In this document: positions 6,814 through 14,540 of the stretch, one piece after another
Layout: every line of letters starts with the position of its first letter
How positions within the stretch are numbered: the stretch's first letter is position 1
Source: Alphaproteobacteria bacterium
Lineage (GTDB): Bacteria; Pseudomonadota; Alphaproteobacteria; Rhizobiales; Xanthobacteraceae
Assembly: GCA_016869215.1 (NCBI GenBank)
Contig: VGEP01000047.1
Location: 1 to 34,210, forward strand
Length of the DNA: 34,210 nt
Direction: 5' to 3'
Program-made: the position numbers and the translations under genes
The notes under the pieces: generated by a model
The model's database searches: none
Seen by the model: the letters and a program-made list of their open reading frames with translations, nothing else
What the model was told of the DNA's origin: nothing

Positions 6814-7020
6814 TCACAGCGACGTTTGCTTTTGCCCGCATTCCTTGCAGGCGAACGGCACGCGGGTCTGCCCCGGCGCCGCCTTGACGCGGTTGGGCGC
6901 GCCGCACTTGCCGCACTTGGCCTCGATCCGGGTCTCGCCCTGCTTGACGGTGACGCCCTTGCGCTCCATCGCCTCCCGGACCAGCCGCTCGGCTTCCTCG
7001 CGCATCGATTGCTTCGACAT
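6814..7020 (-). CDS. Small zinc-ribbon protein
   Basis: This encodes 68 residues from the ATG at 7020 (MSKQSM). An ATG ten codons upstream at 7050 is possible but has only AAGAG directly abutting it. The N-terminal 25 residues form a charged helix (REEAERLVREAMERKG). The C-terminal half holds two Cys pairs, CGKCG and CKECG, spaced like a four-Cys zinc ribbon, with a basic stretch between them. It is probably a zinc-binding nucleic-acid or protein-interaction module. It converges on clpS with 6 nt between stop codons. No specific function can be given. Confidence 0.75.
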   Translation of the reverse strand: MSKQSMREEAERLVREAMERKGVTVKQGETRIEAKCGKCGAPNRVKAAPGQTRVPFACKECGQKQTSL

Positions 7021-7128
7021 GTCGTGCCTGTCCGGGTTCGAGCGGGGCATCTCTTAGCATCTTTTCGCGTCGGGTGGATGATGGTCCGCCGGCGGACGGC
7101 CGCGGCCGCCGGGGCGCGAACCGGCGCA

Positions 7129-7206
7129 TCACAGCCGCGCGCAGAGGCAGGCCACGTTGACCAGGCAGGCCATCAGAAGCGTCAGGACCACCACCTTGTC
7201 GGCCAC
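7129..7206 (-). CDS. Possible 25-residue hydrophobic peptide
   Basis: A GTG at 7206 is preceded by GGGGAG at ideal 6-nt spacing and opens a 25-codon frame ending in TGA at 7129-7131. The peptide has Asp3 and Lys4, then one continuous hydrophobic segment with three Cys (residues 14, 20 and 22) and a basic end (CARL). It would be a single-pass membrane peptide. A -10-like TACGAT lies just upstream, and seven GANTC sites occupy the upstream spacer. The length is far below usual gene callers, so only comparative or ribosome-profiling data would settle it. Confidence 0.4.
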   Translation of the reverse strand: MADKVVVLTLLMACLVNVACLCARL

Positions 7207-7222
7207 GGCAGGCTCCCCGGAA

Positions 7223-7241
7223 ATCGTACAGGATGGGAATC
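7223..7241 (-). promoter_or_regulatory. Candidate GANTC-type promoter for the 25-aa peptide
   Basis: On the minus strand a TACGAT (7223-7228) could be a -10; a start about 7 nt downstream would give a leader of roughly 12 nt carrying the GGGGAG site. A GATTC site (7237-7241) lies 8 nt upstream of the -10, inside the expected spacer. There is no convincing -35, as is often true of activator-dependent promoters. Confidence 0.3.
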
Positions 7242-7358
7242 GGACGCGGAGGATGAGGCGAGTCGGGGGTGGGAGTCCCAGGGAATGTTTTTTGCGGGAT
7301 TCACGTCTCGTTTACGCGGCGGAGTCCGGTCGGGGGCGATTCCTTCAGGCCGCGACTC
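7237..7358. promoter_or_regulatory. Cluster of seven GANTC methylation sites
   Basis: GANTC sites start at 7237, 7260, 7273, 7298, 7322, 7338 and 7354: seven in 122 bp. By hand I count about 60 in the whole 34-kb window, so this spot is strongly enriched. The sequence is non-coding (the 193-bp spacer 7207-7399) between the 25-aa peptide frame and the 69-aa membrane protein gene. GANTC is the target of the cell-cycle methylase CcrM and is read by GcrA in alphaproteobacteria. I see no other gene or RNA in the spacer. Confidence 0.75.
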
Positions 7359-7399
7359 GGCTGCCGCCGGAGGCAGGCCCGCTCGCGCCGGTGCCCGGC

Positions 7400-7609
7400 T
7401 CAACCCCACCACAGCCAGGCCATGCGCGCCGCGGTGATCGCGCCGACCACGCCGATCGCCGCGATGAACATCCAGATCAGGATGTCGAACTGGCGCTTGA
7501 ACTGCTGGACGTTCTGGCTCATGCGCGTCGGCCGCCGGAACAGGACGGAGCGCGCGAACAGCAGGACGGGGATGACGGCGACGGCGAGGGCGAGGAGTTT
7601 CAGGAGCAT
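7400..7609 (-). CDS. Small two-helix membrane protein, 69 aa
   Basis: This encodes 69 residues from the ATG at 7609. Two membrane helices are clear, at residues 2-22 and 44-64, joined by a basic/polar loop (RRPTRMSQNVQQFKRQFD). It ends in WLWWG. The positive-inside rule places the loop in the cytoplasm. The ribosome site is weak (GGAT at 8-9 nt). Proteins of this shape are common as conserved hypotheticals in Hyphomicrobiales. No function is known to me. The palindromic repeat at 7709 lies 100 nt upstream. Confidence 0.65.
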   Translation of the reverse strand: MLLKLLALAVAVIPVLLFARSVLFRRPTRMSQNVQQFKRQFDILIWMFIAAIGVVGAITAARMAWLWWG

Positions 7610-7708
7610 GGGGCGGGGATCCTGCGCGCATCATAAAGCAGGCCCGGGCGGAATAATCACGTGCGCGTGAGGAGGCCGGAATTGGCGGCCCGGATTCTCC
7701 TGTTATTT

Positions 7709-10077: not shown

Positions 10078-13842
<3,765 letters not shown>

Positions 13843-14540
13843 CGTTCTTGCCCCTTCCTTGCGCGCCGGGCGCCCGGAGGCCCCGGCATTTTATCCCCGG
13901 ATGGGGGGTGTCCCCAGCCGATTTCAGTGTTCTTGACGCAACCCTTACGTGGTCACGGGAGCCGGATTCGGCACCCGTCGGCCCCTGGATTGGGGCTCTT
14001 TCCGGCAATTTCGGCGACGAAATCCCTGTCCCCGCCTGGCTCGATTTCCGGGCGGAAGGCTGTCGCCGATCTGCAAGATTGGGCGCGGCCAGGTGACGAG
14101 AAACGGACCCAGACCGCACGAGGGAAACGCTATGCCAGACTCGCCGCACGCGTCAAGCTATAGACACCGAGTCTGAATCAAATACTAAGTCTTGTGCCTC
14201 AGGTGTTAACTCTGGGGATTTCCCAGGGCGACTCACCCCGCACCCGAAGTATCGGACAAGTCGGGCGGATTCCGAAAGCCCCCTGCGTCATCGAGCTGTG
14301 ATCTGCCTGTCACAAAGTCACAGTCAAGGGCGCAAAGGCTGAAAAGCGGGGATGGTTGTCCCGCCGTCCACCGCTTGATTGCGGACCGCAAAAAAGTGCG
14401 GCCGGGCAGGCAGGGGCGGCAGGCCGCAGGAGCGCGCGGCGACAGTGTCCACCGCAAGCTTCGCAGACGGTACGGCTTGCCTCGACATCGCTCCGCGGCG
14501 GTGGCATGAACGGCGTGCCCACAACGCGATTGCCTCGCCG
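13843..14540. other. Long divergent intergenic region between nrdJ and the NDUFA12 gene
   Basis: About 700 bp carries no credible gene. It holds a candidate nrdJ promoter (14129-14156) about 290 nt upstream of the nrdJ ATG, so the leader would be long. Within the leader a 9-bp stem with one T-T mismatch (around 13960-13981) and further G/C-rich hairpins near 13870-13920 are visible. Five GANTC sites lie at 14138, 14169, 14175, 14230 and 14268. I looked for a cobalamin riboswitch (B12 box GCCACTG and its partner motif) and an NrdR box, and found neither. A short frame ending in ATGA at 14541-14544 overlaps the NDUFA12 start. Confidence 0.5.
14129..14156 (-). promoter_or_regulatory. Candidate nrdJ promoter with GANTC in the spacer
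   Basis: On the minus strand a TTGACG (14151-14156) and a CATAGC (14129-14134) are 16 nt apart. A GAGTC site (14138-14142) lies in the spacer 3 nt before the -10, and two more sites (14169, 14175) lie just upstream of the -35. This is the arrangement seen at GcrA/CcrM-controlled promoters. The -10 is a weak match, so the call is tentative. Confidence 0.35.

Follow-up and report, generated by a model that had tools for sequence, protein, structure and literature searches.

Sequence comparisons place the seven GANTC sites at positions 7237 to 7358 of the window, the 34,210-nucleotide stretch of an Xanthobacteraceae genome analysed here, within a unit that recurs in 14 genera of one family and consists of a GANTC cluster, a CtrA-like box, an A-tract, a GGGACTC motif (together, the element) and a small open reading frame (ORF). 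We consider it probable that the cluster is a promoter timed by the cell cycle, which CcrM would mark and GcrA and CtrA would read, and which would drive a 25-aa membrane microprotein with a single predicted helix (7129 to 7206, minus strand). The best-supported part of this reading is the conserved unit of putative promoter and microprotein. The sequence-only reading had offered a cell-cycle-gated promoter, a hemimethylation timer or a protein-binding locus; comparison supports a promoter for the peptide, the cluster being upstream of an ORF of the same family in 62 of 62 elements, and cell-cycle timing, methylation and binding are carried forward as predictions. Control by CcrM, GcrA and CtrA is proposed from the motifs, from the regulators encoded in the genome and from the known reading of methylated GANTC by GcrA.

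The GANTC sites of the cluster, a feature without strand, start at 7237, 7260, 7273, 7298, 7322, 7338 and 7354, and our count reproduced exactly the interval reported for them. For the window as a whole, an earlier count by hand of about 60 sites became 65, where dinucleotide shuffles lead to an expectation of 154. GANTC is avoided in the window, which makes a cluster of seven all the more striking. When 65 sites were placed at random, seven never fell within 122 bp in 5000 trials (maximum six, once), shuffling of the 122-bp spot itself gave no seven GANTC sites in 5000 trials (maximum six, twice), and 3000 shuffles of positions 7048 to 7640 gave at most five in 122 bp. Among 15 other palindromic motifs of the form XYNY'X', only CGNCG (1001 sites) and GCNGC (859 sites), whose numbers are driven by base composition, attain seven in 122 bp. 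A look for similar clusters elsewhere in the genome, in a sample of 40 stretches of 20 kb each (800 kb, from 5.15 Mb), found none of seven: the 1516 GANTC sites of the sample amount to one per 528 bp, and the densest spot has five in 122 bp, once.

This densest spot (L252, position 4707, contig 19 of G000) lies upstream of a 787-aa PAS/histidine-kinase ORF that by eye is PleC- or PdhS-like, and it contains GTTAAC, AAAAATA and GGACTC ordered as in the element. Upstream of gcrA, which is outside the 800-kb sample, there are five GANTC sites in 82 bp. Within the window, positions 14138 to 14272 hold five sites in 135 bp (14138, 14169, 14175, 14230 and 14268), some 300 to 430 bp upstream of a 1254-aa ORF (10078 to 13842, minus strand) with the look, by eye, of a B12-dependent ribonucleotide reductase, and the 50 bp from 2626 to 2675 hold three GATTC sites.

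A DNA search of 61 genomes gave matches in nine, the own genome included, of which only G006 and G033 match at the cluster core; both loci carry a GANTC cluster and a short hydrophobic ORF. A sequence model made from three cores, one of them the window's (model R1), gave 66 matches in 63 of 198 genomes of the family, about 135 of the 198 being without an R1 match at E 0.05 under strict filters. We kept 62 of these matches, from 59 genomes and 14 genera including Bradyrhizobium, Afipia and Rhodopseudomonas, and dropped four (L074 to L077) in which the box or GGGACTC is missing. The orthologous spacers of relatives had been proposed as a place to look for the sites, and a GANTC cluster is indeed present in the 62 kept elements. 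Furthermore, a pattern scan of named genomes returned at least 119 stretches; the 80 matches listed are mostly from Bradyrhizobium and also include Afipia, Rhodopseudomonas, one Tardiphaga, and MAGs that are unplaced or assigned to Xanthobacteraceae. The pattern also occurs in a record titled Frankia sp. RB7 (L146), perhaps a mislabelled or contaminated assembly.

A larger model, R2, applied to 397 genomes of the order under strict filters gave 16 matches at E 0.001, the own genome included, all of them in the family and none outside it. Among 38 hand-picked genomes (27 from the family, 11 from other families) there were 15 model matches at E up to 1, of which two, at E 0.096 and 0.64, are outside the family. 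A search of the own genome for a second copy at E up to 10 returned none, bar one partial match at E 0.81.

Read on the minus strand, the parts of the element follow one another in the order upstream GANTC, G-T(A/T)AAC-GA, CtrA-like box, A-tract, GGGACTC, often a further GANTC, and A....T. The conserved core (7271 to 7327, minus strand), GGACTCC..GTAAACGAG..TGAATCC..AAAAAA..GGGACTCCC, was delimited by the R1 match, the window sequence itself being part of R1, and by an alignment of 45 of the 62 elements (A3). The CtrA-like box, TAAA-N7-TGAA (7300 to 7314, minus strand), overlaps the GANTC at 7298 to 7302. Its half-site spacing is equal in all 62 kept elements, which the anchor pattern partly imposes, and its letters are TAAA-N7-TGAA in 40, TTAA-N7-TGAA in 10, TTAA-N7-TAAA in 7 and others in 5; in 51 of the 62 the second half-site overlaps an intact GANTC. 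The A-tract, AAAAAA (7288 to 7293, minus strand), corresponds to conserved A columns in A3. The GACTC of GGGACTC (7273 to 7277, minus strand) is the element's most fixed GANTC, intact in 60/62, GGGACTC having also served to locate the end of the element, and the GANTC 8 bp downstream of it (7260 to 7264, minus strand) is intact at the exact offset in 40/62. Measured from the box to where GGGACTC ends, the distance takes two main values, 42 bp in 44 elements and 53 bp in 15; single elements have 40, 41 and 52 bp. The two main spacings thus lie 11 bp apart, about one helical turn, as expected of a factor that must face the polymerase.

The site TACGAT (7223 to 7228) had been put forward as a -10, a proposal that we abandon because, among the 15 elements whose leader has a ribosome site, only that of the window has TACGAT (L014 has TGCGAT). 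The better candidate, chosen post hoc, is CATCCT (7250 to 7255, minus strand): an A....T at +18 to +23 after GGGACTC (plus or minus 1) is found in 61/62 elements, compared with 0 to 36 of 62 at offsets beyond the two neighbours. No clear -35 is seen in the element. We rejected AAAAATA as a box-linked -10, because the insert of about 11 bp lies between the two. In the window, a ribosome-binding site, GGGGAG (7213 to 7218, minus strand), precedes the 25-aa ORF, in agreement with the earlier description of both. The window's genus and a few others have a GGAG-type site after A....T; in g24, g25, g26 and g52 the A....T stands about 6 to 9 nt before the ATG with no obvious ribosome site, and the mRNA may be leaderless in lineages such as these. 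Among weak model matches in relatives (L259, L260, L265, L272 and L277), a sequence like GTTAACGA-N4-TTAAT or TAAAT recurs and may represent the family's plain CtrA site; the TGAATC of the element differs from it by letters that create a GANTC.

Elements contain on average 4.9 GANTC sites per 122 bp against 0.24 in their flanks (233 kb), a density biased upward, partly by construction, because the search model itself contains GANTC. The upstream side is less biased as evidence. There, 61/62 elements have at least one GANTC within 45 bp, spread over 17 positions, of which the commonest (-6, -10 and -11) are each common to related genera, and the middle letter is A, C, G or T. Thus, where the site lies changes from lineage to lineage, its type is retained, and the idea that the sites would persist while the sequence around them diverges is largely borne out.

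The core behaves differently from these outer sites, which bears on a reading that shares the promoter for the microprotein and takes GANTC mainly as the binding sequence of one or more transcription factors, with methylation incidental. At the two best-conserved sites the middle letter hardly varies: GAATC accounts for 50 of 51 intact copies at one and GACTC for 60 of 60 at the other, a constancy equally compatible with protein binding and with methylation. GANTC is lost at the TGAATC position in 11/62, at the +8 position in 22/62 and at the preceding GAGTC position in 30/62, and that the last is intact only in 32/62 also speaks for binding. However, the intact copies at this position vary (GAGTC 27, GACTC 3, GATTC 2), the sites outside the core change position and middle letter yet remain GANTC, and GANTC is avoided elsewhere in the window. 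We regard a mainly binding role as unlikely, if the strongest of the alternatives.

In all 19 single-contig genomes among those kept, the element is in the half of the chromosome far from dnaA, at a distance of 0.295 to 0.486 of the genome length. That seven genus means should all lie so far out has a chance of about 3e-4 under uniform positions, an approximate value obtained with kinship disregarded and dnaA taken as the origin. This origin-distal position, together with the single copy found in most carrier genomes, would suit a structural mark of replication or of the terminus, read by a methylation-sensitive protein and with the small ORF as a mere neighbour. We hold such a mark to be very improbable, given that an ORF of the same family follows in the same orientation within about 100 nt or less in 62/62 elements, that A....T is conserved at a promoter-like position and that three genomes carry two copies. 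These pairs of copies, with diverged peptides, are L040 and L043 (G137), L030 and L054 (G007), and L014 and L078 (G006).

Conservation through one common gene neighbourhood was likewise rejected, because neighbours differ between genus groups. Among the neighbourhoods listed, inspection by eye found a porin-like ORF upstream in g24, g26, g52, g6 and g70, an ORF resembling ClpS close to the g17 copy and to three of the seven from g1, and, in Afipia and g67, a downstream ORF resembling SHMT.

The microprotein of the window, MADKVVVLTLLMACLVNVACLCARL, has a GTG start and, as in all members of the family, a hydrophobic segment. Automatic picking supplied 60 of the 62 ORFs, that of L045 having begun at an inner codon, and two ORFs of g67 are longer (97 and 89 aa) with the motif retained. 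In an alignment of 40 peptides (A4), the sole invariant residue is an Asn (40/40), in an A-C-x-x-N-like motif inside the hydrophobic segment; it is found in 59 of the 60 automatic picks, the exception being a wrong pick. A lipoprotein was discarded as an interpretation, since the C of the motif is S, T or N in several members. The pN/pS ratio is 0.10 to 0.43 in eight testable genera (pairs below 30% divergence only, one g3 and one g25 sequence dropped, single-member genera excluded), a range that points to a translated ORF under purifying selection in these genera; in g3 and g6, variation does not peak at the third position of the codon.

The window peptide matches the profile of its own family at E 1.5e-6, being itself included in the profile. 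In 249 genomes of the order the profile gave 10 matches, seven in the family and three outside it that have no GANTC cluster nearby. As a simple peptide pattern had missed G002 and G025, the profile was used for an out-of-sample check on 22 later R2 matches and the four dropped loci, where these two genomes alone match (G002, model E 2e-8 and peptide E 8e-8; G025, model E 0.002 and peptide E 0.004). They also have the most GANTC sites nearby among the 22 later matches, 4 and 6 respectively, dropped loci being uncounted. In Pfam and NCBIfam, eight members gave no match over the cut-off, those below it being MtrF for one member (E 0.0097 and 0.0034) and DUF5957 for another (E 0.073); PHROGs, searched with 40 members, gave weak matches to three families with one member each (best E 0.009), and a profile search of the PDB gave none. 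Our guess is that a protein with an Asn in its hydrophobic segment would act by pairing with a second protein of the membrane, for instance a kinase or a division protein.

By size and hydrophobicity the peptide could also be the product of a type I toxin-like gene with unusual regulation, which we think less probable still than a terminus mark: there is one copy in most carrier genomes, the gene is spread over 14 genera, an Rfam scan of positions 6900 to 7700 found no family match, and the eight members lack a Pfam or NCBIfam match over the cut-off. A chance cluster in intergenic DNA can practically be set aside, its sole support being the mild GANTC enrichment of alphaproteobacterial intergenic DNA described in an excerpt of PMC3973325, while random placements, shuffles and the 800-kb sample all failed to yield seven sites and the element is kept in relatives with its GANTC density and upstream sites.

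For the promoter reading, the regulators had to be sought, and a genome without ccrM had been named as grounds for doubt. The genome encodes a CcrM-like methyltransferase of 385 aa with a RAMA domain, GcrA (Pfam GcrA model) and a CtrA-like protein with 92% identity to a Caulobacter CtrA sequence. All three, CcrM, GcrA and CtrA, are parts of the alphaproteobacterial cell-cycle clock. GcrA was found in 21/21 element-bearing genomes tested, by a model of imperfect specificity that also matches Sulfolobus, one of 14 control genomes. The CtrA box is TTAA-N7-TTAA, from which the element's box is one or two letters off, and the own ctrA upstream region has a TTAA-N7-TTTA box and six GANTC sites in 420 bp. 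In the own genome, no TTAA-N7-TTAA box is found upstream of ccrM or gcrA at one mismatch, nor before the PAS-kinase gene at two, so these genes leave the element's box uncalibrated.

In the mechanism that we propose, CcrM would methylate the GANTC sites of the cluster, GcrA, which reads methylated GANTC according to an excerpt of PMC3667746, would read methylated sites near the -10 and help RNA polymerase, and CtrA would bind the upstream box. In most members one half-site of the box contains a GANTC, so CtrA occupancy and the state of methylation could affect each other. When this origin-distal locus is copied, late in S phase, the fully methylated array would become hemimethylated, and this late hemimethylation may time a pulse or a pause in microprotein production; chromosomal position does matter for ctrA P1, according to an excerpt of PMC8116508. 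More specifically, and tentatively, since we rate this as possible but rather doubtful, the unit might be a reporter of replication progress, in which hemimethylation near the terminus leads to a CtrA/GcrA-gated burst or pause of the microprotein.

The promoter logic is of a known kind. In the CcrM/GcrA promoters of Caulobacter and Brevundimonas (for example ctrA P1, mipZ and podJ), GANTC lies in the promoter region, as in the promoter predicted here, and CcrM-like and GcrA genes are likewise present in this genome; the target here, however, is an uncatalogued microprotein. Two of the seven window sites, 7260 and 7354, fit by eye YGAKTCK, which an excerpt of PMC7987155 gives as the extended GcrA motif of an activated subset in Caulobacter and as not found in Brevundimonas. 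Upstream of ctrA homologues of Sphingomonadales and Caulobacterales there are up to five or six GANTC sites in 300 bp, according to an excerpt of PMC8116508, whereas here there are seven in 122 bp. As in CtrA promoters, two half-sites 7 bp apart occupy one fixed place, but in the element they usually read TAAA and TGAA, a GANTC overlaps the second of them in most members, and the spacing from the box to the downstream part shifts by about one helical turn between lineages. MgrB is a small single-helix membrane regulator. The microprotein resembles such regulators in being very short with one hydrophobic segment of about 20 residues, and differs in its constant Asn and in passing no Pfam or NCBIfam cut-off. 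Neither the element nor the microprotein was found reported, by title or abstract start, in the literature searched. As far as these searches show, the density of the sites, the overlap of half-site and GANTC, the origin-distal location in varied neighbourhoods and the uncatalogued target are new.

The conservation of this patch in front of a membrane microprotein suggests an on-off switch tied to the copying of the chromosome. Even closely related bacteria differ in their CcrM and GcrA targets, as stated in an excerpt of PMC7987155, and the element provides a candidate CcrM/GcrA/CtrA target common to 14 genera, nodule symbionts among them, ahead of a gene that annotation easily misses on account of its shortness. 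The unit could serve as a compact natural reporter for relating array density, methylation state and chromosome position to timing, and the microprotein family is now named for deletion and tagging. If it does report replication progress, its microprotein would signal to the machinery of division or polarity that copying of the chromosome is almost complete.
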